64,000 bases of DNA from Catellatospora paridis (lineage in GTDB: Bacteria; Actinomycetota; Actinomycetes; Mycobacteriales; Micromonosporaceae): contig NZ_ML769313.1 of NCBI RefSeq assembly GCF_009720365.1, positions 124,001-188,000 of the forward strand. Direction: 5' to 3'. Numbering within the stretch: position 1 is the stretch's first letter; the number at the start of each line of letters is the position of its first letter. Both the position numbers and the translations under genes were made by a program. Positions 3,284-32,520 of this stretch are shown here, piece after piece. The notes beneath the pieces were generated by a model. The model was not told the DNA's origin and searched no databases. It worked only from the letters and a program-made list of their open reading frames with translations.

Positions 3284-4561
3284 TCACGCGGGGGTGGGGA
3301 CACCTCCGGTGACCGTGCCGGTGGTGCGGGCCTGCTCGGCGGCCCAGACCACGCGGTGGCTGGCCAGGCTCGCGGCGGCGTCGGAGTGCAGCGCGGACGC
3401 GTCGCCGCCAGCGACCGCCTTGAGGAAGGCGTCCATGATGGCGTCGTCGCCGCCGCCGTGGCCGTCCCCGGCGGTGCCGTCGGCCAGGGTGCCGGTGTCG
3501 ATGGTGCGCTGCTCGCCGGTGCGGAAGTCGGTGACGTGCAGCAGGCGGCCGTCGCCGTCGACGTAGCCGTGGGTGCCGAACAGCCGGGTGCGGCGGAGCT
3601 CCATGGGCGTGAACGCGGTCATGGTGAACGTGCAGGTCGCGCCGTCGGGGAACTCCATCGCGACGACCTGGTGGTCGACGACGTTGTTGTCGCTGCCGTA
3701 GACGCAGCGCCCGTACGGTCCGGTGCGCAGCGCGGCGTCGATGCCGGCCTCGGTGTGGTCGGTGGTGACCGCCGACAGCGGCCAGAACTCGCGGGCCGGG
3801 TCGCCCAGGCAGGAGCGGTAGAGGCGGGGCGCGGAGTAGGGGCAGCTCCGTTCGAGCGGGCAGTCCAGGCAGTTGTCGGCTGCTTCGGCCGGGCGCTGCT
3901 CGGCCCGGAAGTGGGCGAGCCCGCCGAACGAGCTGACCCGGCTGGGGGCCGCGCCGATCAGGTAGAGCAGCCAGTCGATGTCGTGGCAGGACTTGGTGAG
4001 CAGCAGGGGCGCGGAGGTCTCGGAGTTGTTCCAGTGCCCGCGCACGAACGAGTGCGCGAAGTGCCACCATCCGATCGGCTCCAGGTGCTGCACGTTGACG
4101 AGCTTGCCGATCGCACCGCCGTCGAGCAGGCCTTTCAGCGCCCGGGTGTAGGGCGTGTAGCGCAGCACATGGCAGACGGCGAGCATGACCCCGGCCGCGT
4201 CGACGGCGGCGGCGATGCGCAGCGCGTCGGGCTCGGTGGTGGCCATCGGCTTTTCCAGGAGTATGTGATAACCCAGCCCGGCGAAGGCCACGGCCGCGTC
4301 GGCGTGCATCCGGTCCTGGGTGGCGATCACCGCGGCGTCGCCGAGCCGTCCGGCGGCGGCGAGTTCGGCCCAGTCGGTGAACACCTGGTCGGCCGGCACG
4401 CCGAACTCGGCGGCGAACGCCGCGCGGCGGTCGGGGTCCGGTTCGGCGACGGCCACCACCTGGGCCGTCCCGCTGGCGGCCGCGCGTCGGGCGTATCCGA
4501 TGCCGCGCAGTCCGGCACCTGCCACGACCAGCCGTACCCCGTCTACAGTCATCTCAGCCAT
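3284..4561 (-). CDS. Gfo/Idh/MocA-family oxidoreductase with cysteine cluster
   Basis: A 425-residue NAD(P)-dependent sugar dehydrogenase-fold protein. An N-terminal Rossmann domain (about residues 8-130) carries GAGLRGIGYA and the hallmark EKP motif in LLEKPMATT; the C-terminal alpha/beta domain has the conserved SCHDIDWLLYL. An insert near residues 230-250 has CLDCPLERSC, a C-x2-C-x5-C arrangement not present in standard family members that may bind metal. It is divergent from the ROK regulator and next to the sugar operon, so it likely acts on the imported sugar. The same fold includes the GH109 NAD-dependent alpha-N-acetylgalactosaminidases, a tempting match to the locus but not shown by any specific motif here. 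MTVDGV (ATG at 4552) is an alternative start. Confidence 0.85.
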   Translation of the reverse strand: MAEMTVDGVRLVVAGAGLRGIGYARRAAASGTAQVVAVAEPDPDRRAAFAAEFGVPADQVFTDWAELAAAGRLGDAAVIATQDRMHADAAVAFAGLGYHILLEKPMATTEPDALRIAAAVDAAGVMLAVCHVLRYTPYTRALKGLLDGGAIGKLVNVQHLEPIGWWHFAHSFVRGHWNNSETSAPLLLTKSCHDIDWLLYLIGAAPSRVSSFGGLAHFRAEQRPAEAADNCLDCPLERSCPYSAPRLYRSCLGDPAREFWPLSAVTTDHTEAGIDAALRTGPYGRCVYGSDNNVVDHQVVAMEFPDGATCTFTMTAFTPMELRRTRLFGTHGYVDGDGRLLHVTDFRTGEQRTIDTGTLADGTAGDGHGGGDDAIMDAFLKAVAGGDASALHSDAAASLASHRVVWAAEQARTTGTVTGGVPTPA

Positions 4562-4572
4562 CCCGTGGAGGA

Positions 4573-4603
4573 GTTACTTTTGAAGGTCTCCATAATTAGT
4601 AAC
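4573..4603. promoter_or_regulatory. Candidate ROK operator between the divergent sugar genes
   Basis: An unusually AT-rich island holds a perfect 6-base inverted repeat (GTTACT at 4573-4578, AGTAAC at 4598-4603) and, inside it, the block GTCTCCATAATTAGT. A closely similar block, GACTCCATTAATACT, sits in the promoter of the downstream operon at 5852-5866. Shared sequence at both intergenic regions flanking the ROK gene suggests it is that protein's binding site. Confidence 0.5.
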
Positions 4604-4635
4604 ATGGCAGCGCGGTGTGCAAAAGGGGGCCGGTG

Positions 4636-5802
4636 GTGACCGAACAGCTCGCAGGTGGGGATCTATCGCGGTTGCGGCAGCTCAACGCCCTGGCCGTGGT
4701 GCACGTGCTGCGCGGCCGACCGGCGTTGACGCTGACCGAGTTGTCGCGCGACACCGGTTTGTCCCGGCCCTCCACCGAGGACGTGGTGCTGCAGCTGCAG
4801 AACCAGGGCTGGCTGGAGGAGGTGCAGCCCGCGGCCGGCGGGATGGGCCGCCCGGCCCGCCGCTACCGGTTCCGGTCCGACGCCGGCTGGGTGCTGGGCG
4901 TCGACATCGGCGGGCACACCATCCGGGTGCTGGCCGCCGACCTGGACGGCGAGGTCAGGCACACCGTGCGCACGCCGGTGGCGATCACCGCGGGCCGGGC
5001 CGAGCGCCTCGGCGCGGTCGACGCCGCGGTCGCCGAGTGCCTGGCCGCGGCCGGGCTGACCGGCGCGGACATCTGGGCGACCACGGTCGGCACCAGCGGC
5101 CTGGTCGACGCGGCGGGCCGGGTCGTGCTGTCGGTGGCGTTCCCGGAGTGGACCGGGGTGCACCTGGCCCAGCACGTAGGTCGCCTGGTCGGCGGCACGG
5201 TGCTGGTGGAGAACGACAGCCGGCTGGCCGCCCTGGCCGAGACCTGGCGCGGCGTGGCCCGGTATGCCCAGCACGTGGTCTACCTGCTGGCGGGCCTGCG
5301 CACGGGCACCGGTCTGATCATCGACGGCAAGCTGCACCGCGGGTTCGCGCAGGCGGCCGGCGAGATCGGGGCGCTGCCCGAGCTGGGCTGGATCCGCGCG
5401 CAGGAGCACCTGCGCTCGTGGACCGGCGCACCGGCCGGGACCGACCCCGACGACCTGGCGGGATACGTCTTCGCCAGCGCCCGCGAGGGCGACCGCAAGG
5501 CGGTGGCCGTGGTGCGCCGGTATGCCAAGGAGCTGGCGCTGGGCGCGTCGGCGCTGGTCCTGGCGCTGGATCCGCAGCTGGTGGTGCTCGGCGGCGGCTT
5601 CTCCCGCTCCGCCGACGTGCTGCTCGACCCGCTGCGCCGCGAGATCGAGAAGCGCTGCGTACGCATCCCGGAGATCCTCACCTCGACGCTCGGCGACGAG
5701 TCGGTGGCGCTCGGCGCGGTGAAACTCTCGCTCGAACATCTGCAGGAGCATCTGTTCGACGTGCGCACCGGCGTGGCAGCACCGCTGCGACCTGCACGTT
5801 GA
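4636..5802 (+). CDS. ROK-family transcriptional regulator
   Basis: A 388-residue NagC/XylR-type regulator. A winged helix-turn-helix at about residues 10-70 (TLTELSRDTGLSRPSTEDVV) precedes a sugar-kinase-like ROK domain with the phosphate-binding motif GVDIGGHTIRVLAADL. The usual ROK zinc site (GH followed by CxCGxxGC) is missing: the region reads GEIGALPELGW with no cysteines, so this is an atypical, probably zinc-free, sensor. The GTG at 4636 is chosen because a purine-rich AAAAGGGGG lies 6 bases upstream; GTGs at 4633 and 4615 are alternatives. It is divergent from the Gfo/Idh gene and directly upstream of the ABC/glycosidase operon, which it probably represses until the sugar arrives. Confidence 0.88.
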   Translation: MTEQLAGGDLSRLRQLNALAVVHVLRGRPALTLTELSRDTGLSRPSTEDVVLQLQNQGWLEEVQPAAGGMGRPARRYRFRSDAGWVLGVDIGGHTIRVLAADLDGEVRHTVRTPVAITAGRAERLGAVDAAVAECLAAAGLTGADIWATTVGTSGLVDAAGRVVLSVAFPEWTGVHLAQHVGRLVGGTVLVENDSRLAALAETWRGVARYAQHVVYLLAGLRTGTGLIIDGKLHRGFAQAAGEIGALPELGWIRAQEHLRSWTGAPAGTDPDDLAGYVFASAREGDRKAVAVVRRYAKELALGASALVLALDPQLVVLGGGFSRSADVLLDPLRREIEKRCVRIPEILTSTLGDESVALGAVKLSLEHLQEHLFDVRTGVAAPLRPAR

Positions 5803-5834
5803 TACTTCGGCATGCCGCGGCCCGCGTTCGGGTC

Positions 5835-5866
5835 TTGACAAACTTATTCAGGACTCCATTAATACT
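5835..5866 (+). promoter_or_regulatory. Promoter of the sugar operon with overlapping operator
   Basis: A perfect TTGACA -35 box (5835-5840) is followed 17 bases later by an ATTAAT -10-like hexamer (5858-5863) in a locally AT-rich stretch. The -10 region overlaps GACTCCATTAATACT, matching the block upstream of the ROK gene, so a repressor bound here would block polymerase. The leader to the first ATG (5980) is roughly 110 bases. Confidence 0.6.
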
Positions 5867-5979
5867 GGGCTAGCACATGTGACACGGGTCTCGGCGGCGC
5901 CGGATGGTGCCACGCCACCGTTCGTCCCACCGCGGCCCGGTGAATCCCCGATGACGGCTTTGCGAGAAGGGTTCCTCAG

Positions 5980-7242
5980 ATGTGGAAAGCAGTGCGGGTA
6001 GGCGCCGCCGCGGTTCTGGCCGCCGCGCTCGCCGTGACCGCCGCGGGTTGCGGGAGCGACGAGCCCGCCGCCAGTGACGAGAAGGTCACCCTGTCGTATG
6101 CGGTGTGGGACAAGAACCAGGTCCCGGTGATGGAGGAGATCGCCGCCGCCTTCACCAAGGACCACCCGAACATCACGATCAACGTCCAGCTCACGCCGTG
6201 GGCCGACTACTGGACCAAGCTGCGGGCCGCCGTCACCGGTGGCGCGGCACCGGACGTGTTCTGGATGAACGGCCCCAACATCCAGCTCTACGCGGACAAC
6301 GGCGTGATCATGCCGCTGTCCGACAAGATCGACCAGGCCAAGCTCGACCTGACCGTCTACCCGAAGGCGCTGGTCGACCTCTACACCTTCGAGGGCAAGG
6401 TCTACGGGCTGCCGAAGGACTTCGACACCGTCGGCGTCTGGTACAACAAGGAACTCTTCGACGCCGCCGCGGTGAAGTACCCCGCCGACGGCTGGACCTG
6501 GGCCGACTTCAAGGCCGCCGCGGCGAAGCTGAGCAACCCGGCCAAGGGCGTCTACGCCGTCGGCGCCAACCTCGCCGGCCAGGAGTACTACTACAACACC
6601 ATCTACCAGGCCGGCGGCAACGTGATCTCGGCCGACGGCAAGAAGTCCGGCTTCGACGACCCGGCCACCGTCGAGGGCCTGCGCTTCTGGACCGACCTCA
6701 TCAAGAACAAGCAGTCGCCGGACCTCAAGACGATGACCGACACCGCCCCGCTCCAGCTGTTCGAGTCGGGCAAGCTCGCCATGTACTGGGGCGGCTCCTG
6801 GAACGTCTCGGAGTTCGGCAAGAACGAGTACACCAAGACCCGGGTCGACGCGGCCCCGCTGCCGACCGGCGTCAAGCAGGCCACCATCATCCACGGCCTG
6901 GCCAACGTGGTCTCGGCCAAGACGAAGGCCCCCGCGCAGGCCTGGGAGTTCGTGAAGTTCCTCGGCTCCAAGCCCGCCGCCGACATCCTCGGTAAGAAGG
7001 GCCCGATCCCGGCGTACACCGGCACCCAGGACGCCTGGCTGGCCGCCAACGCGCAGTTCAAGGGCAAGGTCTTCCTCGACGCGGTGAGCTACGCGGTGCC
7101 CTACCCGGTGTCGCGCAACACCGCGGCCTGGAACGACGAGGAGTTCAAGCAGCTCACCAAGGCGTACACCGGTGAGGTGACCGTCGAGGCGGCCGCCAAG
7201 GAACTCGCCACGCAGATGAACGCCCTGCTGGCGAAGGAGTAG
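5980..7242 (+). CDS. Sugar ABC transporter substrate-binding lipoprotein (CUT1)
   Basis: A 420-residue extracellular solute-binding protein of family 1. The signal peptide ends in a lipobox-like AVTAAGC with Cys24 as the lipidation site, so the mature protein is anchored outside the membrane. Typical motifs are the N-terminal strand VTLSYAVWDKNQ, WADYWTKLRAAVTGGAAPDVFWMN, and GKVYGLPKDFDTVGVWYNK. It is the first gene of an operon that continues into two permeases and two secreted glycosidase-like proteins, so its ligand is likely an oligosaccharide released by them. AGAAGG at 5965-5970 is the ribosome-binding site. Confidence 0.92.
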   Translation: MWKAVRVGAAAVLAAALAVTAAGCGSDEPAASDEKVTLSYAVWDKNQVPVMEEIAAAFTKDHPNITINVQLTPWADYWTKLRAAVTGGAAPDVFWMNGPNIQLYADNGVIMPLSDKIDQAKLDLTVYPKALVDLYTFEGKVYGLPKDFDTVGVWYNKELFDAAAVKYPADGWTWADFKAAAAKLSNPAKGVYAVGANLAGQEYYYNTIYQAGGNVISADGKKSGFDDPATVEGLRFWTDLIKNKQSPDLKTMTDTAPLQLFESGKLAMYWGGSWNVSEFGKNEYTKTRVDAAPLPTGVKQATIIHGLANVVSAKTKAPAQAWEFVKFLGSKPAADILGKKGPIPAYTGTQDAWLAANAQFKGKVFLDAVSYAVPYPVSRNTAAWNDEEFKQLTKAYTGEVTVEAAAKELATQMNALLAKE

Positions 7243-7248
7243 CACCGC

Positions 7249-8226
7249 ATGACAGCAACCGTGACGGGCGCCGCGGACGACGTCCGCACCGCGGTGCCCG
7301 CCCCGGTGCCCGCCCGGCGGCGACGTCGCTGGCGCCACCGGGGAGCCGAAGCCGCCTGGGGATACCTGCTCATCGCCCCCACCGGGCTGGGCCTGGCCGT
7401 GTTCTACCTGTGGCCGGTGCTGCAGACCGGCTACTTCTCCTTCACCGAATGGGGCCCGTTCGGCGGGCACGAATGGGTCGGGCTGGACAACTACCGCACC
7501 CTGGCCGCCGACGACGAGGTGCTGACATCGCTGCGCAACACCGTGGCGTACACCCTGCTCGGGCTGCTCGGCATCCCGCTGGCGGTGCTGTTCGCGGCGC
7601 TGCTCAACCGGCCCCGGCTGCGCGGCGTGTCGGCATACCGGGCGCTGTTCTTCCTGCCCGTGGTCACCATGCCGGTGGCCGTGGCGATGGTCTGGCGCTG
7701 GCTCTACAACGGCGACTACGGCCTGATCAACTACCTGCTGTCGCTGGTGGGCGTCGAGGGCCCGCACTGGATCGCCGACCCCGCGACCGCGCTGTACGCG
7801 CTGGTCGCCGTCGGAATCTGGACCAGCCTCGGCTACAACATCGTCATCTTCCTGGCCGGCATGCAGGCGATCCCGCGCGAGTACTACGAGGCCGCGGCGA
7901 TCGACGGGGCCGGGGCGCTGGCGCAGTTCCGCCGGATCACGCTGCCGCTGCTGTCACCGTCGCTGTTCTTCGTGTCGGTGCTGTCGGTCATCGGCTCGCT
8001 GCAGCTGTTCGACCTGGTGTACGTGATGGGCGGCAGCGGCCAGTCGGCGCGCGCCAACCCGGCCTTCCCGCGCATCCAGACCGTCGTGCACCTGTTCTAC
8101 GACAAGGCGTTCTACACCAACGACCGGGGATACGCCGCCGCGATCGTGATGGCGCTGCTGGTGCTCATCGTGACGCTGACGGCGATCCAGTTCCGGCTGC
8201 AGAAACGGTGGGTGCACTATGGCTGA
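7249..8226 (+). CDS. Sugar ABC transporter permease, MalF type
   Basis: A 325-residue inner-membrane permease with about six transmembrane helices after a positively charged cytoplasmic N-terminus. The EAA loop that contacts the ATPase is EYYEAAAIDGAGALAQFRRI. It begins 6 bases after the binding-protein gene, with GAAGGAG overlapping that gene's end, and its stop overlaps the next permease start. It pairs with the MalG-type protein to form the channel. No ATPase is encoded in the locus, so a shared MsiK-like ATPase elsewhere is presumably used. Confidence 0.92.
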   Translation: MTATVTGAADDVRTAVPAPVPARRRRRWRHRGAEAAWGYLLIAPTGLGLAVFYLWPVLQTGYFSFTEWGPFGGHEWVGLDNYRTLAADDEVLTSLRNTVAYTLLGLLGIPLAVLFAALLNRPRLRGVSAYRALFFLPVVTMPVAVAMVWRWLYNGDYGLINYLLSLVGVEGPHWIADPATALYALVAVGIWTSLGYNIVIFLAGMQAIPREYYEAAAIDGAGALAQFRRITLPLLSPSLFFVSVLSVIGSLQLFDLVYVMGGSGQSARANPAFPRIQTVVHLFYDKAFYTNDRGYAAAIVMALLVLIVTLTAIQFRLQKRWVHYG

Positions 8227-9046
8227 TCCCGCACGCCGCGGTGGGCGCACCGCGACCCACGTCACGCTGCTGGTCGGCGCGGCGGTCATGGTCGGCCCGT
8301 TCCTGTGGCAGTTCCTGACGTCGCTGAAGACCCTCACCAACGCCACCCGGGTGCCGCCCACGTTCGTGCCCGACTGGCGCTGGTCCAACTACGCCGACGT
8401 GTTCGAGCTGCTGCCCTTCGGCCACCAGATCCTCAACACCGTGCTGATGACCGCCGCCCGCACCGCCGGGCAACTGCTGTTCTGCTCCATGGCCGCGTAC
8501 GCGTTCGCGCGGCTGCGCTTCCCCGGCCGCGGCCTGCTGTTCGGGATCTTCCTGTCGGTGCTGATGGTGCCGCCGCCGCTGTTCGTCATCCCGCAGTACG
8601 AGATCATGGCCGACCTCGGCTGGCTCAACAGCCTGACCGCGCTCATCGTGCCCGGCCTGTTCTCCGCGTTCGGCGTGTTCCTGCTCCGGCAGTTCTTCCT
8701 CGGCCTGCCCAAGGAACTCGACGAGGCAGCCCGGCTCGACGGGGCCGGCCCGCTGCGCATCTACTGGTCGGTCATGCTGCCGCTGGCCAAACCCGGCCTG
8801 CTCGCGCTGGGCATCCTGACCGTGCTGTGGTCCTGGAACGACCTGTTCTGGCCGCTGATCGTCAACACCGACCCGGAGCAGATGACCCTGTCGGCGGGCC
8901 TCGCCTCGCTGCAGGGCCAGTTCCAGACCGACTACCCGGTGCTCATGGCCGGTTCCCTGCTCGCCTCGCTGCCCGTCATCGTGCTGTTCACCGTGATGCA
9001 GCGCCACTTCATCCAAGGCATCGCCTTCAGCGGCAACAAGGGCTGA
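8219..9046 (+). CDS. Sugar ABC transporter permease, MalG type
   Basis: A 275-residue carbohydrate permease with six predicted membrane segments and the EAA-loop motif ELDEAARLDGAGPLRIYWSV. It overlaps the MalF-type gene by 8 bases, a sign of coupled translation in fixed stoichiometry. The C-terminal part (QRHFIQGIAFSGNKG) is typical of CUT1 MalG-like subunits. It belongs with the binding protein at 5980 and forms the second half of the membrane channel. Confidence 0.92.
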   Translation: MADPARRGGRTATHVTLLVGAAVMVGPFLWQFLTSLKTLTNATRVPPTFVPDWRWSNYADVFELLPFGHQILNTVLMTAARTAGQLLFCSMAAYAFARLRFPGRGLLFGIFLSVLMVPPPLFVIPQYEIMADLGWLNSLTALIVPGLFSAFGVFLLRQFFLGLPKELDEAARLDGAGPLRIYWSVMLPLAKPGLLALGILTVLWSWNDLFWPLIVNTDPEQMTLSAGLASLQGQFQTDYPVLMAGSLLASLPVIVLFTVMQRHFIQGIAFSGNKG

Positions 9047-9073
9047 CACAACCCCAGATCGGAGACTACGACC

Positions 9074-10909
9074 ATGCTGCATCGGCATGGCCGCGGACGC
9101 CTGCACCTCCGGGCGGCGGCCGTACTCGTCACACTGCTCACCGTCGCATCCGGCGCAGCACCCGCGCAGGCCGTCGCCCGCCCGCCCGACGGCATCGCCC
9201 AGCAGCTCGCGGTGCCCGCGTACTTCTACCCGGGCGGCGACGGCGCCGCCCTCTGGCAGCAGCTGAACACCCCTGGCGTCGGGATCGCGGTCGCGAACCC
9301 GTTCTCCGGCCCCGGCAAGACCCGCGACCCCAACTACGCCGCCGCCATCAGCGCCGCCAAAGCCGCGGGCGTACGCGTGCTCGGCTACGTCGCCACCGGC
9401 TACCTCGGCACCACCGGCCGCGCGACCAGGCTCAACGAGACCATCCCGGCCGCCTGGGCGGCACAGGTCCAGCAGGACATCGCCACCTGGTACCGCCTCT
9501 ACGGCGCCGACGGGCTCGCCGGGATCTTCTTCGACGAGGTGCAGAACGTCTGCGGCCCACAGGACACCTACATCGACACCTACCGGATGCTCGACCGGCA
9601 CACCAAGCGCGCCAACCCCGGCGCGTTCACCGTCATCAACCCGGGCATCGACACCGAGCCCTGCTACGCCGACGCCGCCGACGTCATCCTCACCTTCGAG
9701 GGCACCTACGAGACCTACCTCGGCTGGCAGCCGCCGGCCTGGCACCGGGCGCTCGACCCGCGCAAGCTGTGGCACCTGGTGCACGCCACCGACACCACCG
9801 CCCAGCTCGCGAACGCGGTCGCGCTGAGCGAGCAGCGCAACGCGGGCTACCTGTACGTCACCCCGGACGTGCTGGCCAACCCCTGGGACTCGCTGCCGCC
9901 GCAGGACTACTGGACGCAGCAGCTTGCCGCCGCGTCGACTGGTGGCGGGGACACGGCCGCGCCGCGCGTGTTCGGCACGCCGTTCCCGGTCCGGACCGGC
10001 CCGACCGAGGCCGTCGTCGCCTGGCTGCCCGCCGCCGACCCGCACGGCCGGGTCACCGGCTACGACGTGCACGTCGACGGCGTGCGAGTGGCGGGCTCGG
10101 CCAGTGCGCTGCCGGTCGCCACGCTGCACGGACTCAGCCCGAACCGGACCTACCGGATCACGGTCACCGCGCACGACGCGGCGGGCAACGTCTCCGCGCC
10201 GGGCCGTGCGCTGAGCCTGACCACGGCGCGTGCCGACGCGTCGGCGCCTGCCGCGCCCGCCGGGCTGCACGCCGCCGAGACCAAGGTCGCCAGCGTACGG
10301 CTGGCCTGGACCGCGTCCGCCGAGGCGGACCTCGCGGGCTATGACGTCGAGGTCGACGGGCAGCCGCTGCTGTCGCTGCCGTCGTCGCTGGTCACGCAGG
10401 GGACCACGGTCACCGTGCCGGTCAGCGGGCTGGAGCCGGGCACGGCGTACACGTTCACGGCGTACGCCCGCGATCGCAGCGGGAACCGCTCGGCCGCCGC
10501 CGGGCCGCTCACCGTGAGCACGACGGCGCCCTCGGGCGACCCGATCAGCGACGCGTCCGGTGCCATCGCCACCGCCGACGTCACCTACCAGGCGCAGTAC
10601 AACCTGCCGTTCGACTTCCACCACCTGTTCATCGACGTCGACAACGACGCGAGCACCGGGTTCGCGACCGCGGGCATCGGGGCGGACCTGCTCATCGAGA
10701 ACGCCTGGTTCTACCGCCACACCGGCACCGGCTGGAGCTGGGCCCCGGTCGACGGACCGAGCCCGCTCGTGTCCAGCGACGACGACCGCTACGTCTGGCG
10801 GGTGCCCGCCGACGTGCTCGGCGGCGTGCCGGTCGGCCCGCACCGGGTGGTGTTCCACGGCTCCGGCAGCTCGCCGGAGACCTACACCGCAGTGATCACC
10901 GTCAGCTGA
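9074..10909 (+). CDS. Secreted Spherulin-4 (GH135-like) glycosidase with FN3 domains
   Basis: A 611-residue secreted protein. A signal peptide (about 1-33, ending APAQA) precedes a Spherulin-4 TIM-barrel (about 45-290): VPAYFYPGG, GVRVLGYVATGYLG, GIFFDEVQN and LTFEGTYETY. The Asp154-Glu155 pair and Glu209 match in spacing the acidic residues I recall for the fungal member Sph3 (GH135), a galactosaminogalactan hydrolase. Two fibronectin type III domains (about 300-390 and 395-485) and a C-terminal beta-sandwich (about 490-611) follow; the last resembles modules in the next gene (FIDVDNDASTGF...LIENAWFYRHTG.GWSW). It lies 27 bases after the permease and 26 before the GH114-like gene. Activity on galactosamine polymers is inferred. 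Confidence 0.8.
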   Translation: MLHRHGRGRLHLRAAAVLVTLLTVASGAAPAQAVARPPDGIAQQLAVPAYFYPGGDGAALWQQLNTPGVGIAVANPFSGPGKTRDPNYAAAISAAKAAGVRVLGYVATGYLGTTGRATRLNETIPAAWAAQVQQDIATWYRLYGADGLAGIFFDEVQNVCGPQDTYIDTYRMLDRHTKRANPGAFTVINPGIDTEPCYADAADVILTFEGTYETYLGWQPPAWHRALDPRKLWHLVHATDTTAQLANAVALSEQRNAGYLYVTPDVLANPWDSLPPQDYWTQQLAAASTGGGDTAAPRVFGTPFPVRTGPTEAVVAWLPAADPHGRVTGYDVHVDGVRVAGSASALPVATLHGLSPNRTYRITVTAHDAAGNVSAPGRALSLTTARADASAPAAPAGLHAAETKVASVRLAWTASAEADLAGYDVEVDGQPLLSLPSSLVTQGTTVTVPVSGLEPGTAYTFTAYARDRSGNRSAAAGPLTVSTTAPSGDPISDASGAIATADVTYQAQYNLPFDFHHLFIDVDNDASTGFATAGIGADLLIENAWFYRHTGTGWSWAPVDGPSPLVSSDDDRYVWRVPADVLGGVPVGPHRVVFHGSGSSPETYTAVITVS

Positions 10910-10935
10910 TCCACTTTTAACAGAGGCGAGGTGCC

Positions 10936-13900
10936 ATGAACGACAGAGCTCATCCGCACCGCACCACTTCAGCGAAACGCCGTGTCCGGGCCAGGCTGCT
11001 GGCCGGGGCGCTGGCCGCCGTCACCGCGCTGACCGCCGGGATCGTCGCCGTCACGGCGGCCCCGGCGGCCGCGGCCGGCTTCGAGATCGGCCGGACCCCG
11101 TTCTACGGCAAGGTCCCCACGCTCGGCGCGAACAGCCGCACCGCGTTCTGGTACGGCGCGCTCGACCAGGCGAAAGTCAACCAGCTCAAGGCGTACGACC
11201 TGGTGGTCCTGGAACCCACCCTGCGGGTGCTGAACGTGACCGCCGACCACTTCTACTTCGAGTCGGTCACCTCCGCGCAGGTCCAGGAGATCAAACGTGG
11301 GGTCGACGGGGTGCTCGGCAGCGCCGACGACGCGATCGTGCTCGGCTACCTGTCGGTCGGCGAGATGCTGCCGACGATCATCCCCGGCCACAGCGGGCAC
11401 ATGACGATCCAGAAGGGCATCGACCTGGGCCTGCTCCCGGCGGGCTACAGCGGCCCGTCGGGTCCGCTGCACGGCCCGAACCCGTGGAACTACAACGCCG
11501 CCGGCTCCTACCTCAACGTCGAGGGCGGCGCGACCCCTGACGGCACCTACGCCGACGGCTACGCCAACTACGCGGGCACCTCGATCGGCGCCAACTACTC
11601 CTCCTGGGGCAACCGCCTGACCTGGCGCAACAGCGGCGTCATGCCCTGGTACCTCGACCAGCAGGGCACCTGGGTCAACGACAGCCGCTACCTGTACGGC
11701 GGCTACTGGAAGGACGGCGACGGCACCGTCGACGTCAACCCGACCTACGGCGGCGGCTACATCAACGGCGGCGACCCGGCCTGGCAGAAGTTCGTCACGT
11801 ACCAGGTCGACAAGATCGTGCACGACGGCGACTACGACGGGGTCTTCCTCGACACCGTCGACACCCCCGACCCGGTCGGCGGCGCGGGGCCGGGCATCTC
11901 CTGGGGGCCGCGCGGCAACTTCGGCTTCACCGCGGGCGGCATGGTCGACCTCGTAGAGAAGATCAAAGCGGTCGACCCGAGCAAGGTCGTGGCCTCCAAC
12001 CGGGGCTACTGGTATTTCAACCCCGACGAGGGCACCTCGCAGTTCGCCTCCCGGTACCGGCACGCGATCAACATCTTCGTGACCGAGTCCTGGTACTACA
12101 ACACGTACATCCCGGGCTTCTACGACACCAGCCCCGGCTTCGAGGCCAACTGGAACACCAATCCGGCCTCGCCGACCTACCGCAGCCGCGACAACTTCGG
12201 CGGCTTCTGGAAGGAGTACGTCAACGCCCAGGCCAACCAGGCCGACGGCTTCAACGTCGCCATCATCGACTTCCGGGTGCCCGCCGCGAGCACCCAGAAG
12301 TGGATGAACGAGGTCGTCGTCAACTCCGGCTACCTCGGCTACGACGTGTCGGGTGCGAACCACTTCAACTCCGCGGTGTACGACGACGCCAAGAACTGGC
12401 TCGACGCGCAGGGGCGGGCCGCGCCCAGCCAGGCCGGGGCCCACCCGACGGATCTCTACGGCGGTTTCGTGGCCGACGGGACCGTGGGGGAGTGGTCCGC
12501 GGAGACGCCGATCTTCAGCGATCCCGCGGGCGCCAACGCCAAGGGCATCACCAAGGTGTACGTGAAGTTCGTGGGCAACCGGTTCTTCATGATGGCCGAG
12601 GCTAAGCAGACGATCAGCCTGGCCCAGGAGATGATCTACTTCGACTACGACAAGGACGGGCCGTCCGGGTGGCAGCCGTCCTGGCCGACGTCGCCCGACT
12701 CGCGCCTCTACCTGGAGAACCTGAACCAGGCCTACCTGCTGCCGCACGCCGGGGCGGGCCAGGGCGACGTGTTCAAGTTCGGCAGCCCCAGCGCGCCGAC
12801 CAACCGCGGCTGGCCGGTGCGGGTGGTGCAGTCCGGTACCCGGGCCGAGTTCGAGTTCGACCGCGACTACGTGTTCCCGGCCTCGATGGCGGGCACCGAG
12901 GTGTGGACGTGGCTACGGGTCGCCAACTTCGGCGGGTCCTCGGTCAAGTTCACCGTGCCCGGCGGCGGCACACCCCCGTCGCCGTCCCCGACACCGTCCA
13001 GCTCGCCGCCCCCGGCGCAACCGCCGGTGATCTCGAACGTGCAGTACGCGAACGTGACCAGCACGGGCGCGACGGTCACCTGGACCACGGACGTGGCGTC
13101 GTCGTCGGTGGTGGAGTACGGCACTTCGACCGCCTACGGTGCCACGGCGACCGGGGCGAGCAACGTGACCAGCCACTCGGTGACGCTGTCCGGACTGTCT
13201 CCGGGCACGGCGTACCAGTTCCGGGCGCGTTCGGTCTCGGCCGGCGGCACCACGAACAGCCCCAACGGCACGTTCACCACGGCCTCGTCCGGCGGCGGTT
13301 CCTATCCGGCGATCACCGTCGACGGATCCGTGGGCGACTGGGGGAGCATCACGCCCGCCATGACCGGCAGCACCACCGTGCAGTCGGTGTCGGTGGCCAA
13401 CAACGCCACCAACCTCTACCTGCTCGCCCGGGGCACGGGACTCGACGTGTTCGGGCAGTTCTTCCTCAACACCGACAACAACCCCGCCACCGGGTACAGC
13501 GCCACCGGCTGGAGCAACCCGTCCGGCGCGGACTACATGCTGGAGAACGGCAACCTGTACCGGCACGCCGGCGGCGGCTGGGCCTGGACGTCGCTGGGCG
13601 CGGTCACCTTCGTCCGCAACGACACCGCCGTCGAAGCGGCGATCCCGCTGTCCACGCTCGGCCTGAGCCCCGGCGGGCAACTGCGGGCGGGCTACCTGAA
13701 GAACAACTCCGCCACCGACCGGCTCCCGGCCGCGAGCGGCACGTTCCCGGTGGTGAGCCTGCTCAACGGCTCCGGCGGCGGAGGCGGCGCGCCCGTCGTC
13801 AGCAACGTCCAGTACGCCAACGTGACCAGCACCGGCGCGACGGTCACCTGGACAACGGACGTGGCGTCGTCGTCGGTGGTCGAGTACGGCACTTCGACCG

Positions 13901-14532
13901 CCTACGGCTCCACGGCGACCGGGGCGAACAACGTCACCGGCCACTCGGTGACGTTGTCAGGGCTGTCTTCGGGCACGGCGTACCAGTTCCGGGTCCGCTC
14001 GGTCTCGGCCGGTGGCACGACGAACAGCCCCAACGGCACCTTCACCACGGCGTCGTCCGGCGGCGGCTACCCGGCGATCACCGTCGACGGGTCGGCCGGT
14101 GACTGGGCGAGCGTGACACCGGTGCTGTCGGGCGGCACCGGCGTGCAGTCGGTGTCGGTCACCAACAACGGCACGACGCTCTACCTGTGCGTCAAAGGCA
14201 CCAGCCTGAACGTGCTCGGCCAGTTCTTCCTCAACACCGACAACAACACCGGCACCGGCTACAACGCCGCAGGCTGGACCAACCCGTCCGGCGGCGACTA
14301 CATGCTGGAGAACGCCAACCTGTACGACCACGGCGGCAGCGGCTGGTCCTGGACCCCGCTGGGCGCGATGACCTTCGTCCGCAACGACACCGTCATCGAA
14401 GCCGCCATCCCCCTGTCCAGCCTGGGCCTGACCCCCGGCACCCAGTTCCGCCTCGGCTACATCAAAAACAACACCACCGACCGCCTCCCGACCGCAGGCG
14501 GCACCTTCCCGGCCGTGACCCTCCTACCCTGA
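10936..14532 (+). CDS. Large secreted GH114-like glycosidase with repeated FN3/beta-sandwich modules
   Basis: A 1198-residue secreted multidomain protein. After a signal peptide (about 1-47, APAAAA) comes a GH114-type TIM barrel (about 50-500) with YDLVVLEP, AIVLGYLSVGE, the DGVFLDTVD motif (Asp306, Asp309) and Glu384 in VTESWYYN. GH114 includes the fungal endo-alpha-1,4-galactosaminidase Ega3. Then follow a beta-sandwich module (about 508-680), a Pro/Ser/Thr linker (about 683-695) and two copies of an FN3 plus beta-sandwich unit (about 697-944 and 953-1198). The sandwich modules share the pattern TDNN..TGY...GADYMLEN.NLY.H.G.GW.WT. It is the last gene of the operon. The substrate is inferred from the family, and the modules are probably carbohydrate-binding. 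Confidence 0.8.
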   Translation: MNDRAHPHRTTSAKRRVRARLLAGALAAVTALTAGIVAVTAAPAAAAGFEIGRTPFYGKVPTLGANSRTAFWYGALDQAKVNQLKAYDLVVLEPTLRVLNVTADHFYFESVTSAQVQEIKRGVDGVLGSADDAIVLGYLSVGEMLPTIIPGHSGHMTIQKGIDLGLLPAGYSGPSGPLHGPNPWNYNAAGSYLNVEGGATPDGTYADGYANYAGTSIGANYSSWGNRLTWRNSGVMPWYLDQQGTWVNDSRYLYGGYWKDGDGTVDVNPTYGGGYINGGDPAWQKFVTYQVDKIVHDGDYDGVFLDTVDTPDPVGGAGPGISWGPRGNFGFTAGGMVDLVEKIKAVDPSKVVASNRGYWYFNPDEGTSQFASRYRHAINIFVTESWYYNTYIPGFYDTSPGFEANWNTNPASPTYRSRDNFGGFWKEYVNAQANQADGFNVAIIDFRVPAASTQKWMNEVVVNSGYLGYDVSGANHFNSAVYDDAKNWLDAQGRAAPSQAGAHPTDLYGGFVADGTVGEWSAETPIFSDPAGANAKGITKVYVKFVGNRFFMMAEAKQTISLAQEMIYFDYDKDGPSGWQPSWPTSPDSRLYLENLNQAYLLPHAGAGQGDVFKFGSPSAPTNRGWPVRVVQSGTRAEFEFDRDYVFPASMAGTEVWTWLRVANFGGSSVKFTVPGGGTPPSPSPTPSSSPPPAQPPVISNVQYANVTSTGATVTWTTDVASSSVVEYGTSTAYGATATGASNVTSHSVTLSGLSPGTAYQFRARSVSAGGTTNSPNGTFTTASSGGGSYPAITVDGSVGDWGSITPAMTGSTTVQSVSVANNATNLYLLARGTGLDVFGQFFLNTDNNPATGYSATGWSNPSGADYMLENGNLYRHAGGGWAWTSLGAVTFVRNDTAVEAAIPLSTLGLSPGGQLRAGYLKNNSATDRLPAASGTFPVVSLLNGSGGGGGAPVVSNVQYANVTSTGATVTWTTDVASSSVVEYGTSTAYGSTATGANNVTGHSVTLSGLSSGTAYQFRVRSVSAGGTTNSPNGTFTTASSGGGYPAITVDGSAGDWASVTPVLSGGTGVQSVSVTNNGTTLYLCVKGTSLNVLGQFFLNTDNNTGTGYNAAGWTNPSGGDYMLENANLYDHGGSGWSWTPLGAMTFVRNDTVIEAAIPLSSLGLTPGTQFRLGYIKNNTTDRLPTAGGTFPAVTLLP
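13024..14532 (+). repeat. Intragenic tandem duplication (FN3 + beta-sandwich unit)
   Basis: Two units of about 745 bases (13024-13767 and 13792-14532) repeat with a period near 768 bases at high nucleotide identity. For example, both contain AACGTGACCAGCAC and TACGGCACTTCGACCGCCTA. The FN3 parts are nearly identical and the sandwich parts diverge more. The similarity at synonymous sites points to a fairly recent duplication or gene conversion. Confidence 0.9.
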
Positions 14533-14545
14533 CCCTCTCACCGCG

Positions 14546-14616
14546 ACGATCTTGCGCGAGCTGTGGGTGCGACACGCTCATATCGGGTGTATCGGCAACA
14601 GTCCGCGCAAGATCGT
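14546..14616. terminator. Long hairpin between convergent genes, possible repeat element
   Basis: Arms ACGATCTTGCGCGAGCTGT (14546-14564) and ACAGTCCGCGCAAGATCGT (14598-14616) pair at 17 of 19 positions around a 33-base loop. It sits between two convergent genes and can act as a bidirectional terminator. Its arm length, loop length and GATC-containing ends resemble the two hairpin elements at 32.4 and 39.9 kb, although the internal sequence differs. Confidence 0.6.
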
Positions 14617-14640
14617 TGCTTGGGGAGTGACCGTTCCGGG

Positions 14641-15789
14641 CTACGCCTGTGTGATCTGCGGCGGCGTCCAGTCGGCGTGCCGGGCCATTGAGCGCAGCGC
14701 GGTCCGCGGCGGGGTCAGTCGCATCAGTGTGTTGCGCAGCTCGACGGCCACGGGGTTCGACAGCTGTTGGCCGATCCGGCCGAGCTGTTCCGCGGCGCGG
14801 GCGATCTGCTGCGACCGTGGGCGGCGCTGCCGGTCGTACCCGGCCAGGGCGGCGGGGATGTCGTCGTCCGGTCCGCACACCGAGGCGAGCACCACGGCGT
14901 CCTCGATCGCCTGGTTGGCGCCCTGGCCGAGGTTCGGGGTCATGGCATGGGCGGCGTCGCCCAGCAGCGCGACGCGGCCGTGTACATAGGACGGCAGGGC
15001 GGTGGCGAGGTGACGCAGCTCGGTGCGGATGACCGCGGCCGGGTCGGTGGCGTCGAGCAGGTCGGGCACCGGCGCGTGCCAGCCGCCGAACCGCGCCCGA
15101 ACCGCGGCCGTATCGTCGTCGACGTACCGCCCCGCGGGCGCGTTGACCGCGGCGAACCAGTAGACGCGGCCGTCGCCGAGCGGCACCATGCCGAACTCCG
15201 CGCCCTGCCCCCAGCTGATCGCGGCCATGCGCTCGCCGTCCCAGGGACCGGTGACGCCGAGCCAGGCGGTCGAGCCTGAGTGGACGGGCCCCGGGTGGCC
15301 GGGCCACAGCCGTGCGCGCACCGTGCTGTCGATGCCGTCGGCGGCGACCACGAGCGAGGCGGCCCTGGTCACCGTCTCGCCGTCGTGCCGGTAGACGACC
15401 TGCCCCCCGATGTCGGTCACCTCGGCACCGGTGACGATCGTGTCGGCCGGCAGCGCCGCGCGCAGGATTTCGTGCAGGGACGCCCGGTGAATGCCCAGCG
15501 CGGAGGTGCCCAGCAGTCGGGTCATGGCCGCGCCGTCGATGCGCGAGATCCACCGGCCGGAGGCGGTGCGTATGCCGCCCGGTGTGTCGGGGTGGCCCGC
15601 AGCGCGGACCCTGTCGCCGACGCCCAGCGCGTCGAGCCCGCGCAGCCCGTTGGCCATCAGCGTCAGGCCCGCGCCGACCTCGCCGAAGCGCGCCGTCCGC
15701 TCCAGGACGGTGACCTGCCAGCCGCGCCTACGCAGCCCGATGGCGGCGCAGAGCCCGCCGATGCCCGCGCCGATGACGATCGCGTCCAT
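14641..15789 (-). CDS. FAD-dependent monooxygenase
   Basis: A 382-residue class A flavoprotein hydroxylase (salicylate hydroxylase/PHBH-like). The FAD-binding GxGxxG motif is IVIGAGIGGLCAAIGL at the N-terminus, the mid-protein DG motif is VVAADGIDSTVR, and GRVALLGDAAHAMTPNLGQG is the conserved second FAD/ribityl motif. These enzymes hydroxylate aromatic or polyketide-like compounds with NAD(P)H and oxygen. The gene is divergent from a TetR regulator, and its start codon lies 11 bases from a perfect TetR-type palindrome, so it is very likely induced by a substrate-like ligand. The substrate is unknown. Confidence 0.9.
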   Translation of the reverse strand: MDAIVIGAGIGGLCAAIGLRRRGWQVTVLERTARFGEVGAGLTLMANGLRGLDALGVGDRVRAAGHPDTPGGIRTASGRWISRIDGAAMTRLLGTSALGIHRASLHEILRAALPADTIVTGAEVTDIGGQVVYRHDGETVTRAASLVVAADGIDSTVRARLWPGHPGPVHSGSTAWLGVTGPWDGERMAAISWGQGAEFGMVPLGDGRVYWFAAVNAPAGRYVDDDTAAVRARFGGWHAPVPDLLDATDPAAVIRTELRHLATALPSYVHGRVALLGDAAHAMTPNLGQGANQAIEDAVVLASVCGPDDDIPAALAGYDRQRRPRSQQIARAAEQLGRIGQQLSNPVAVELRNTLMRLTPPRTALRSMARHADWTPPQITQA

Positions 15790-19288: not shown

Positions 19289-19777
19289 GTGCTGACCGAC
19301 GACGCCCAGCTTTGGCAGTTGCTGCGATCCCTGGACGACCCCGATCTCCTGGAGCATCCCGTCGGCTACGACCACCGCGGCGAGCGCGCACGGTTCGAGC
19401 AGTTGGCGCAGCGGCTCGACGCCGCGTTCGGCTGCCGGTGCGAGGTGGACCGCCATGTGGAAGACGCCAGCTTCCACGGCCGCATCGACATCCCCGCAAC
19501 TGCCACCGCGACCGGGCATCCGCTCGTCGTTGTCGTCAGCAACTTCGGAGGACTGGCCGTCCTTGCCGTGGACAACCCGGGTGTCTGGACCGACGACGAG
19601 GTGGCCGACCTGCTGCACACCGGCGACCGCGACCGCGTGAGCGCGGCTCTCGGCGAACTCGGCTACACCCACATCCCGGAAGGTCCGCTCTGGCGGCGCT
19701 ACGACGGCACGTGGGATCCTGATGTCTTCTCGCCCGGGGAGAACACCTGGTGGGTTCGATACTTCGACTACCTTTAG
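19289..19777 (+). CDS. Hypothetical protein
   Basis: A 162-residue acidic soluble protein that I do not recognise. It starts at GTG 19289. Visible features are an N-terminal helical stretch (DDAQLWQLLRSLDDPDLLEH), a central alternating strand pattern with LVVVVSNFGGLAVLAV, and a Trp/Asp-rich C-terminus (WRRYDGTWDPDVFSPGENTW). There is no signal peptide or membrane helix. Regular third-position GC and absence of stops support it as real. It resembles the many immunity-like or SMI1-like small proteins of actinobacteria in size only; that is not a claim of function. Confidence 0.65.
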   Translation: MLTDDAQLWQLLRSLDDPDLLEHPVGYDHRGERARFEQLAQRLDAAFGCRCEVDRHVEDASFHGRIDIPATATATGHPLVVVVSNFGGLAVLAVDNPGVWTDDEVADLLHTGDRDRVSAALGELGYTHIPEGPLWRRYDGTWDPDVFSPGENTWWVRYFDYL

Positions 19778-19811
19778 AGCGACTCGTAGCCAGGCGCGGT
19801 CCCTCGCCGGC

Positions 19812-20411
19812 TCAGGCGCCCTCGCGTTCGATCCGTTCCTGGCGCCGCGCCAACACCGTGCTCAGGCTGAGCTCCACGGTCTGCATGCGGTAGTGATCCA
19901 TGGCGTCCTGCCGGAGCAGTTGCAGGCATCCCAGGATCAGCAGGGCCAGTTCGGCCGTGGTCAATACGCTGCGTACGCCGGGATGCCAGGCCGGTAGGAG
20001 GCCGAGTTCGGTGAGCGCCCACCAGCGTTGCATCCCGTCGGTCGGAGCCGTGTAGTCGGAGTTGACGGTGACAGCGCAGGAGAGCACGAAGAGGGCGACC
20101 GAACCGACGATCCACACCAGGTTGCGGGCGATCGCATACGGGCGGCGGATGAGCAGGCCCAGCACGCCGAAGGCCACCAGCATCGCCGCGGCGATCACGG
20201 CATGCCACCGCAGGTCCTGTTCGACGGTCTCCACGACCAGCTGCGGGTCGGCGACCTGCTGGGCGAGTCCCGACGCCAGGAACCTCGGTCCCGCGTCGTC
20301 GAGCCGGATCAGGCCGACTGCCGAGACGACGACATCGGTCAGGGCGACCGCCGCCAGGGCGATCAGCAGGTACGAGGCGAGCGAAACCGGGCGGGGCAGG
20401 CGTTGCGCCAT
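19812..20411 (-). CDS. Four-helix membrane protein, unknown function
   Basis: A 199-residue protein with four predicted transmembrane helices (about residues 12-32, 73-92, 97-115 and 145-165). A short basic cytoplasmic tail ends it (LARRQERIEREGA). The loop between helices 1 and 2 is extracytoplasmic and rich in polar residues. The hydrophobic pattern resembles DUF2975-type four-helix proteins such as the one at 18297, but similarity is too weak to assign. It is a single gene converging on the hypothetical gene to its left. Confidence 0.65.
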   Translation of the reverse strand: MAQRLPRPVSLASYLLIALAAVALTDVVVSAVGLIRLDDAGPRFLASGLAQQVADPQLVVETVEQDLRWHAVIAAAMLVAFGVLGLLIRRPYAIARNLVWIVGSVALFVLSCAVTVNSDYTAPTDGMQRWWALTELGLLPAWHPGVRSVLTTAELALLILGCLQLLRQDAMDHYRMQTVELSLSTVLARRQERIEREGA

Positions 20412-20577
20412 GCGAGTGCCTTTCGCGTGGAGGCGTGGCAGTGGACGCTAACCATCCGTACGACGCCGGGCAAGCGCATTCGCGAAGCGTGCACCACGGA
20501 CTCGGCGAGACCTGCCGGTGTCCGGGCGCCTCCCGGACCGCGGCGCCGTCACCGCCACGTCGGCGACGGTGGGCGGC

Positions 20578-21036
20578 CTACCGGATCGGCTGCTCCTTGC
20601 CGTGGTCTTCGGGCGGCCGCGGCCCGAAGATCGTCCGCTCCGACTCGGCGATCGGCACGTCGTTGATGCTGGCCTCCCGGCGGCGCATCAGGCCGTGCTC
20701 GTCGAACTCCCACAGCTCGTTGCCGTAGCTGCGCCACCACTGCCCGGCGGCATCGTGGGACTCGTACTGGAAGCGCACCGCGATCCGGTCGCCGCCGAAC
20801 GTCCACAGGTTCTTGCGCAGCGCGTAGTCCAGCTCGCGCGCCCATTTGTCACTCAGGAACTCGATGATCGCCGGGCGTCCGGTGAGGAACATGTCCCGGT
20901 TGCGCCACACGGAGTCCTCGGTGTACGCCAGCGCGACACGTTCCGGGTCGCGGGTGTTCCACGCGTCCTCAGCGGCCTGCACCTTCATCAGCGCCGTGGT
21001 GTGGTCGAACGGGGGTAGCGGCGGTTTGTCGGCCAT
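20578..21036 (-). CDS. DUF1348 (SnoaL/NTF2-like) protein
   Basis: A 152-residue protein of the DUF1348 family, an NTF2-like alpha+beta cone fold. Recognisable stretches are [47 protein letters not shown], and [18 protein letters not shown]. The start is ATG 21036, behind CAGGAG on the minus strand, although the frame stays open further upstream. Members are small cytoplasmic proteins of unknown function, some annotated as NTF2-like isomerase or hydrolase folds. It is divergent from a short hypothetical gene. Confidence 0.85.
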
Positions 21037-21261
21037 GGCGGATTCTCCTGAACACGTCACGCGGCGAGTGCGGCCTGTCGCCGGCAGCTGTCTTCGCTGC
21101 TTACGGCGCTCCCGCACCACTGTGGCACGGCAGGCGGCTCTCCGGAGCGGTTCCGGCGCGATCGACGTCCTGCCCGTTTTCGACCGTATTCCAGTGGTCT
21201 CCGGACGGGGGAGCGGGCGTATGACGCACGCTGCCGACAGATCCTTCGGTAATCTGAGTCC

Positions 21262-30947: not shown

Positions 30948-30950
30948 CTA

Positions 30951-32246: not shown

Positions 32247-32271
32247 AGGTCCTCCGTCAAAGGCGAATTCT

Positions 32272-32287
32272 CTGTGAACGTTCACAG
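32272..32287. promoter_or_regulatory. LacI operator 1 (transporter operon)
   Basis: CTGTGAACGTTCACAG, a perfect 16-base palindrome, 25 bases before the binding-protein start. Confidence 0.9.
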
Positions 32288-32368
32288 TGCGGCACAGTCT
32301 GCTCGCCCGGAAACGCACCCGTCAAGACCTCGTTTCCGAGGCGTTACACGGGCCGCGTGGCAACCCTA

Positions 32369-32443
32369 GATCGTCCGACTTGCCTGGCGATCGTGCGTAT
32401 CTTGAGCACCTTTTCGCCCACCTGCCAGGCAAGTTGGACGATC
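32369..32443. repeat. Hairpin repeat element, copy A
   Basis: Arms GATCGTCCGACTTGCCTGGC (32369-32388) and GCCAGGCAAGTTGGACGATC (32424-32443) pair at 19 of 20 positions around a 35-base loop. The loop carries GTGCGTATCTTGAGC and TTCGCCCACCT, which recur in the copy at 39888-39966. Arms and loop are both conserved, so this is a mobile or amplified intergenic element of REP/MITE type. It has no coding capacity. Confidence 0.85.
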
Positions 32444-32504
32444 ATGACCGGGTCCGCCGGGTCGGTCCATGCCCGGCTCTTTTCGCGCGCCTGGTGGTCG
32501 GTTA

Positions 32505-32520
32505 CTGTGCACGTTCACAG
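32505..32520. promoter_or_regulatory. LacI operator 2 (beta-galactosidase)
   Basis: CTGTGCACGTTCACAG matches operator 1 at 15 of 16 positions and lies 26 bases before the GH42 start. It overlaps a TACTGT -10-like hexamer (32503-32508), so binding would block initiation. Confidence 0.88.

Follow-up and report, generated by a model that had tools for sequence, protein, structure and literature searches.

Organisation of the operon

We analysed a stretch of 64,000 nt of Catellatospora paridis DNA (contig NZ_ML769313.1, positions 124,001-188,000; genome size 8.97 Mb), here called the window, within which all positions are given. It carries an apparent operon that combines a CUT1 sugar importer and a ROK family regulator with two secreted enzymes, and which is considered here as a candidate system for the use of galactosamine polymers. 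The genes are arranged as follows:

3284..4561, minus strand: Gfo/Idh/MocA oxidoreductase gene, divergent (Pfam PF01408, GFO_IDH_MocA, 1.3e-17)
4615..5802, plus strand: ROK family regulator with N-terminal helix-turn-helix (HTH) domain (PF00480, 3.6e-31; HTH_IclR, 2.3e-7)
5980..7242, plus strand: CUT1 solute-binding lipoprotein (solute-binding protein, SBP; PF01547, SBP_bac_1, 4.7e-44)
7249..8226, plus strand: CUT1 permease 1 (PF00528, BPD_transp_1, 9.4e-18)
8219..9046, plus strand: CUT1 permease 2 (PF00528, BPD_transp_1, 3e-19)
9074..10909, plus strand: secreted Spherulin-4/GH135-type enzyme, the first enzyme (PF12138, Spherulin4, 5.5e-41)
10936..14532, plus strand: secreted enzyme, by hhalign, Foldseek and residues D306 and E384 a putative member of the GH114/GH166/GH191 superfamily, the second enzyme

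The intergenic gaps, counted from the Gfo/Idh/MocA gene, measure 53, 177, 6, -8, 27 and 26 bp, the last four reflecting the tight spacing from the SBP gene onwards; judged from relatives, the ROK gene may start at 4636. The complete gene order is repeated in Nonomuraea soli (L013) and in all four of the remaining named loci from Catellatospora (L008-L011), and the operon is therefore a genuine unit whose order is not due to chance. Scanning of 4400-6100 and 14400-14800 for promoters (spacing 16-18) and terminators called none; a TTGACA with a TAATAC 19 bases downstream is visible in these regions, beyond the spacing that the scan covers.

An earlier note on this DNA had coupled a CUT1 importer to two secreted enzymes, and indeed all genes lie at the positions given above with support from Pfam. 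The protein read there as a ROK regulator of NagC type has both the ROK and the HTH domain and scores 65.3 bits with the NagC model (cut-off 650). According to Pfam, the importer comprises a family 1 SBP, whose closest PDB example is 5f7v (Lmo0181, 1.7e-40), and two permeases. An ATPase gene is missing from the operon, and CUT1-class operons commonly have no ATPase gene of their own. The Gfo/Idh/MocA gene has an orthologue adjoining the ROK gene in all six operon loci compared (L008-L011, L013, L083), and its product is probably a sugar dehydrogenase of the pathway. A role as GH109 glycosidase, at which the earlier note had hinted, found no support: among 56 PDB matches at E <= 0.001 none is named a glycosidase.

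The first enzyme belongs to the Spherulin-4/GH135 family

The first enzyme matches the Pfam model Spherulin4 over positions 2-238 of 239 with 141.1 bits (cut-off 30.2). Besides its catalytic domain (~9194-9940), it has two fn3 domains and one copy of a module that we term C-domain. The nearest solved structures are Spherulin-4 entries, namely 5d6t (3.6e-10) and 5c5g (3.9e-10), the latter being Sph3 of Aspergillus clavatus. Residues D154-E155 and E209 are present and line up with the Asp-Glu pair and the Glu of Sph3, presumably Asp166, Glu167 and Glu222, which agrees with the GH135 likeness and the residue spacing expected beforehand. For Sph3, PMC12054363 names Glu222 and prints Asp196; it also gives GH135, GH114, GH166 and GH191 as the endo-galactosaminidase families. 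By its sequence, the first enzyme is a true Spherulin-4/GH135 protein, with endo-alpha-1,4-N-acetylgalactosaminidase as its predicted activity.

In an alignment of 44 Spherulin-4 rows, about a dozen of which are repeat fetches of the same genes, the D154 column holds Asp in 43 rows and the E209 column Glu in 42. The E155 column is divided between Glu (17), Gln (18), Arg (7) and other residues (2). Glu is retained in the proteins of the operon family (window, genus relatives, L083 and L013), in L084 and also in L071, L072 and L086. Gln or Arg occupies the column in the Spherulin-4 proteins of L085, L087, L088, L089, L093 and L094, all of which lie near PelF-like genes. This split is not clean, since the Spherulin-4 gene of L086 adjoins PelF and PelG yet its product keeps Glu. 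The L085 locus also has a CUT1 importer close by.

The second enzyme represents a putative new branch of the galactosaminidase superfamily

The catalytic domain of the second enzyme (~11083-12440, ~450 aa) contains D306 within a DGVFLDTVD motif, E384, and a long insertion that is nearly invariant among its own relatives; fn3 and three C-domain copies complete the protein. The Pfam GH114 model (PF03537) gave no match to it at E <= 0.1, the same model finding two other genes of the genome. TIGR01370 (GH191/MJ1477-TM1410) reached 15.9 bits (E 0.0052), below its cut-off of 181.25, and no direct match to PelA (GH166) was obtained in the PDB by phmmer or profile, PelA being linked to the enzyme via relatives only.

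These distant relatives came from a profile search of genomes and were aligned in two sets of five rows each, that is PelA-like plus GH114-like proteins (A4) and an unclassified Paenibacillaceae family (A5). Comparison by hhalign of the second-enzyme alignment (A1) with A4 gave 99.1% for a stretch of 91 columns that surrounds the Asp motif, and comparison with the intermediate family A5 gave 99.8% over 294 columns; A4 and A5 matched each other at 99.6%. The accompanying E-values are rough because the alignments are small. In a mixed alignment of 13 rows (A2), the Asp of D306 is invariant and the Glu of E384 is found in 12. Foldseek searches with a model of the catalytic domain returned PelA (5tsy, 5tcb) and Env-GH191 (9ep5) at the top with 1.5e-7 each, and TmGH191 in ninth place. 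The fold and the active-site Asp and Glu shared by the GH114/GH166/GH191 superfamily are thus found in the second enzyme, as judged from hhalign and a model of moderate quality.

Taken together, profile comparison and predicted fold place the second enzyme in an undescribed, unclassified branch of this superfamily. Of the former designation 'GH114-like', superfamily membership, DGVFLDTVD and E384 stand, whereas membership of GH114 itself does not. A Paenibacillaceae family of ~585-720 aa (L040, L041, L042, L043, L046) is related to the second enzyme, and its two scanned members (L040 and L041) gave no Pfam GH match.

Both enzymes share a module tentatively likened to carbohydrate-binding modules

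Iterated hidden Markov model (HMM) searches (model length 136) located four C-domain copies in the window, one in the GH135 protein and three, one of them partial, in the second enzyme:

10511..10876, plus strand: C-domain copy in the GH135-type enzyme (HMM 9.8e-29)
12463..12912, plus strand: divergent C-domain copy in the second enzyme (HMM 1.2e-20; partial, model 2-90 of 136)
13309..13716, plus strand: C-domain copy in the second enzyme, predicted beta sandwich resembling carbohydrate-binding modules (CBMs) (HMM 4.4e-53)
14074..14481, plus strand: C-domain copy in the second enzyme (HMM 4.5e-52)

The Pfam families on both enzymes besides Spherulin4 are fn3-like and other Ig-like ones. The structure model of the C-domain is confident (predicted local distance difference test, pLDDT, 95.4), and Foldseek matched it to CBM74 (5.1e-4, the sole match under 0.001) and CBM9 (2.5e-3); its profile retrieved just two nanobodies from the PDB (0.12 and 0.48). 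On the predicted structure, we tentatively regard the C-domain as an unclassified CBM-like module. Beyond the window, it occurs in the DUF4832 proteins of L012, L013, L014, L015, L020 and L083 and, in L045, in a protein resembling GH114. Other C-terminal domains (F5/8 type C) are carried by the PelA-like protein from L025, and the C-domain is thus common across the system, not universal. A secreted protein of L020 (15173-16648, minus strand) combines a C-domain with a barrel-like motif, has no Pfam match and no meaningful PDB match, and possibly represents a further enzyme family of the system.

Distribution and partners of the second enzyme

A pattern scan of one genome per species, which catches close relatives only, yielded 18 named loci with the second enzyme. 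The nearest belong to Catellatospora species (94-98% identity over the catalytic domain). Partners were assigned by similarity to single sequences (SBP, permeases, GH135, PelA-like) or by a profile built from six proteins (DUF4832), and genes in GC-rich loci were called with a codon-usage caller trained on nine window genes. An SBP and both permeases accompany the second enzyme in 15 of the 18 loci and a GH135 enzyme in five (four Catellatospora and N. soli). A DUF4832 enzyme is present in 11, that is ten Paenibacillaceae, with two copies in L012, and N. soli. One clostridial locus (L025, Clostridiaceae) has a separate PelA-like enzyme (PelA 5tcb, 1.4e-22; Pfam GH114, 1.7e-12). The importers of the five actinobacterial loci with GH135 are orthologous and lie in the same operon.

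In a genome from another genus of the family (G033, locus L083), the same operon order and the GH135 enzyme are found with a DUF4874-DUF4832 enzyme replacing the second enzyme, and in N. soli the GH135, second and DUF4832 enzymes are encoded consecutively. The enzymes therefore act like interchangeable components of a single system.

Sampling of genomes showed the second enzyme to be rare. Among the 61 genomes in the relatives set, seven have it, all within the genus, and it was detected in one of 396 genomes of the phylum, the window's own. Four of 11 genus genomes have neither the second enzyme nor a close GH135. In the order to which L012 belongs, 16 of 344 genomes gave any match, which was near full length in nine; the class that includes L025 had matches in 4 of 291, two of them weak.

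Two of these loci show further features. In the Paenibacillus locus L012, a GH66 gene (19316-21139, minus strand; 2.4e-191) lies close to the second enzyme, and a PDB search with the DUF4832 protein of this locus found no solved relative. In the clostridial locus, the second enzyme (L025:10001-10567) is devoid of the first ~264 catalytic-domain residues, immediately behind the signal peptide, reflecting either a deletion or an assembly error.

Candidate ROK operators may connect the operon to a second locus

Two candidate operators for the ROK protein were found in the intergenic regions of the operon:

4576..4600, plus strand: candidate ROK operator 1, ACTTTTGAAGGTCTCCATAATTAGT, kept in the aligned intergenic regions of six loci
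5842..5866, plus strand: candidate ROK operator 2, one base past a TTGACA and ahead of the SBP gene

The element is a 25-base near-palindrome that is nearly identical across Catellatospora and loosest but recognisable in L083 and L013; shuffles predict 0 such sites in the window. When up to three mismatches were allowed, the whole genome contained three sites and the reversed control pattern 0. Sites are present in all 11 genus genomes, with 0 control hits in every one. Seven of the 11 have both operon sites at 0 mismatches, and all 11 share one identical three-mismatch site.

We examined the surroundings of this three-mismatch site in two genomes, the window's (L099, L123, L124) and G001 (L126), and ran Pfam on the second-locus genes of the former. 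The site lies between a CUT1 transporter and four consecutive DUF4832-type secreted genes, which in the window's genome (G000:C2:334000-362000) have CBM6/CBM35 or fn3 domains in place of the C-domain. Behind the transporter come the gene for a GH36-type enzyme (Melibiase, 2.2e-15) and that for another ROK protein, which has 53-54% identity to the first. In G001, the operon is reduced to the Gfo/Idh/MocA and ROK genes with one operator site; besides the three-mismatch site, this genome has one further site, with one mismatch. The two loci are likely to be co-regulated, or their regulators are at least kin, with ROK proteins as the predicted binding partners.

The window itself contains another importer-like set at 28163-34535 (LacI-like regulator, permeases, SBP and a large enzyme on the opposite strand), as judged by eye from the N-termini of the gene calls.

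Related loci point to galactosamine polymers

DUF4832 proteins occur in streptococcal and clostridial pel clusters (PMC7112168). SIR_1591, a TIM-barrel/DUF4832 protein of the Streptococcus intermedius Pel operon, breaks aggregates of a Pel producer, as does PelA (PMC12345266). Two further Spherulin-4 genes exist in the genome of the window (C6, C7), each with a GH114 match directly after it, the one at C7 (region L090:6723-7941) being short (model 1-119 of 231). The pair at C6 (L089:3451-9781) adjoins a PelF-type glycosyltransferase (185.8 bits, cut-off 100), and this locus also has a protein with a sub-threshold CBM87_Agd3 match. Similarly, L086, from a genome of the same phylum, combines Spherulin-4 with PelF (506.8 bits), PelG and an Agd3-type deacetylase. 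PelF was confirmed by a model only in L086 and L089, and a PelF-like N-terminus was recognised by eye in L085, L087, L088, L093 and L094.

A different CUT1 locus from the same order (L084:4843-14665) encodes a GH135 protein with the D/E/E residues together with GH4, PfkB, GntR/UTRA and class II aldolase proteins, and also holds a protein of the Glucosamine_iso family (1.7e-9). This gene set suits an amino-sugar route.

A predicted utilisation locus for galactosamine polymers

The operon is probably a utilisation locus for an alpha-1,4-linked galactosamine or N-acetylgalactosamine polymer of the Pel or galactosaminogalactan type, its activity being predicted from sequence and structure models. 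A galactosamine polymer is the proposed substrate because the GH135, PelA-like and DUF4832 partners are each tied to alpha-1,4-galactosamine polymers in publications. The explanation is further supported by the recurrence of these three enzyme families, the shared module and the operator set. The core of the earlier proposal, an import system for such a polymer, gains support from genome context, profile comparison and predicted fold; GH114 membership and the GH109 hint do not.

We infer substrate, division of labour, import and regulation as follows. Extracellular cleavage of the polymer would fall to the two secreted endo-enzymes, of which the GH135-type one probably acts on acetylated stretches like fungal Sph3, and the GH166/GH191-like one probably on partly or fully deacetylated stretches like PelA and Env-GH191. 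The repeated CBM-like C-domains would keep both enzymes on the polymer. Oligosaccharides would be taken up by the CUT1 importer using an ATPase shared from elsewhere in the genome, as is usual for this class, and the ROK protein would sense a breakdown product and leave both operon operators. The operator-linked second locus, with its importer, GH36-type enzyme and four DUF4832-type enzymes, may complete the breakdown, and its GH36 protein may be one candidate for cleaving oligosaccharides inside the cell. NagA is present in the genome above its model cut-off.

Several observations weigh against this interpretation. Homologues of the SBP bind many different sugars. None of the operon genes encodes an amino-sugar catabolic enzyme, and AgaS in the genome scores far below its cut-off (39.8 versus 529.2 bits). 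The second enzyme matched no Pfam GH family, and neither its catalytic domain as a single sequence (phmmer) nor a 12-row profile produced a meaningful PDB match or a solved GH. The model of this domain is moderate (pLDDT 66.3; predicted TM-score, pTM, 0.74); its top Foldseek matches have target TM-scores of 0.62-0.63 with root-mean-square deviations of 8-11 A, GH168 fucanases rank fourth and GH66 barrels match too. The fold result is also not wholly independent because the underlying alignment held three PelA/GH114-like rows. The 18-locus table shows no importer for L019, L020 and L023 and no partner at all for L019 and L023, L023 being cut by a contig end. The DUF4832 count comes from our own profile, with the domain confirmed by Pfam in L012, L013 and L015, and of the four DUF4832-type genes in the second locus, three pass the cut-off with a weak match. 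The Bacillota loci possess a different CUT1 system (24-41% identity) within 10 kb of the second enzyme, which is co-directional with it in L014, L022 and L025 and on the opposite strand in L015-L018, L021 and L024; the counts of CUT1 near the second enzyme are raw co-occurrences. Finally, the second enzyme is carried by P. glycanilyticus, a degrader of cyanobacterial (Nostoc) polysaccharide, and another polymer is thus possible.

Alternatively, enzymes and importer might recycle or remodel a Pel- or galactosaminogalactan-like exopolysaccharide of the bacterium itself, as could be suspected from the PelF-type glycosyltransferase beside Spherulin-4 and GH114 in the same genome (L089). We consider this unlikely: the PelF-type cluster already has a Spherulin-4 and a GH114 of its own, and six of seven Spherulin-4 proteins beside PelF-like genes carry Gln or Arg at the E155 column, whereas the operon family and L084 keep Glu. 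In addition, 4 of 11 genus genomes lack both the second enzyme and the close GH135, and one of these, G001, retains of the operon only the Gfo/Idh/MocA and ROK genes. This patchy presence within the genus fits an optional food better than a housekeeping step.

It appears quite unlikely that the enzymes share only their folds with galactosaminidases and target another alpha-linked polysaccharide, such as a galactan, a fucan, an alpha-glucan or a cyanobacterial sheath polymer. The Foldseek matches to GH168 fucanases and GH66 enzymes, the GH66 gene of L012 and the unspecific SBP would agree with such a target, as would the GH36-type enzyme of the operator-linked locus, GH36 enzymes being usually galactose-directed. 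However, GH135, PelA-like and DUF4832 proteins recur around the system, each pointing to alpha-1,4-galactosamine polymers, and GH36 fits galactosaminogalactan too because this polymer contains alpha-1,4-galactose (PMC3213105). Published work in which PelA and Sph3 break up Pel-dependent aggregates (PMC12345266) could also suggest a weapon, that is enzymes that strip the fungal hyphal coat or a bacterial biofilm to open prey or competitors, with uptake as a by-product. This is very improbable, as in Catellatospora, N. soli and G033 the enzymes are united by operon and conserved gene order with an importer and a regulator of sugar type.

Relation to known systems and implications

In actinobacteria, operons for glycan utilisation through CUT1 importers, controlled by ROK or LacI regulators, comprise an SBP, two permeases and secreted hydrolases and rely on a shared ATPase. 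The Catellatospora operon has the SBP, permeases, hydrolases and, presumably, the shared ATPase in common with them, and we found no such operon described for galactosamine polymers; indeed, searches of an open-access library, mostly without full texts, yielded no importer-coupled utilisation locus for these polymers. The fungal galactosaminogalactan cluster (Sph3 GH135, Ega3 GH114, Agd3 CE18) likewise places a GH135-type enzyme beside a member of the galactosaminidase superfamily. However, the fungal cluster builds the polymer, whereas the Catellatospora operon has an importer and neither synthase nor deacetylase. Bacterial Agd3/Pel-type operons with GH114 and Spherulin-4 (PMC7229062 and PMC7112168) contain the same enzyme families, Actinobacteria included, but are biosynthetic, whereas the operon described here has a CUT1 importer and a ROK regulator and no glycosyltransferase. 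Bacterial operons for biosynthesis that include GH114, joined by Spherulin-4 in some Actinobacteria, had thus already been described (PMC7229062), and an endogalactosaminidase of Streptomyces griseus from 1975 is cited in the literature; the former claim that no bacterial locus of this kind had been described was therefore too strong.

PelA hydrolase domain (GH166) and GH191 (Env-GH191, TmGH191) are the best fold matches of the second enzyme and have the Asp in a DG.FLDT motif and a later Glu, but the second enzyme is too distant in sequence for the family models of GH166 and GH191 and its domain has a conserved long insertion of its own. DUF4832 enzymes like SIR_1591 (PMC12345266) recur in related loci and in the second operator-linked locus, whereas the window has none within its first 24 kb.

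New in this analysis are the second-enzyme loci with CUT1, GH135, DUF4832 or PelA-like partners, the shared CBM-like module, the three-site operator set and a PelF-type gene beside GH135 and GH114 in the same genome. In a wider sense, the chances are about even that a feeding system for Pel or galactosaminogalactan exists in at least Actinomycetota and Bacillota. It would combine a CUT1 importer with interchangeable endo-enzymes (GH135, the undescribed superfamily branch, PelA-like GH166 and DUF4832), mostly bearing the undescribed CBM-like module; two loci of Catellatospora would also be joined by a small set of ROK operators.

Galactosamine polymers hold the biofilms of Aspergillus and Pseudomonas together, and the few enzymes known to cut them attract study as agents for breaking biofilms. 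Candidate enzymes from soil bacteria are supplied by this operon family, with a putative new catalytic branch beside additional proteins of GH135 and DUF4832, and so is a tentatively assigned new binding module. It also makes the recycling of galactosamine polymer as food in soil, a use for which we found no gene locus described, a testable idea. If the interpretation is true, bacterial biofilm matrix and fungal hyphal coat would, like chitin, be a nutrient served by loci of its own.

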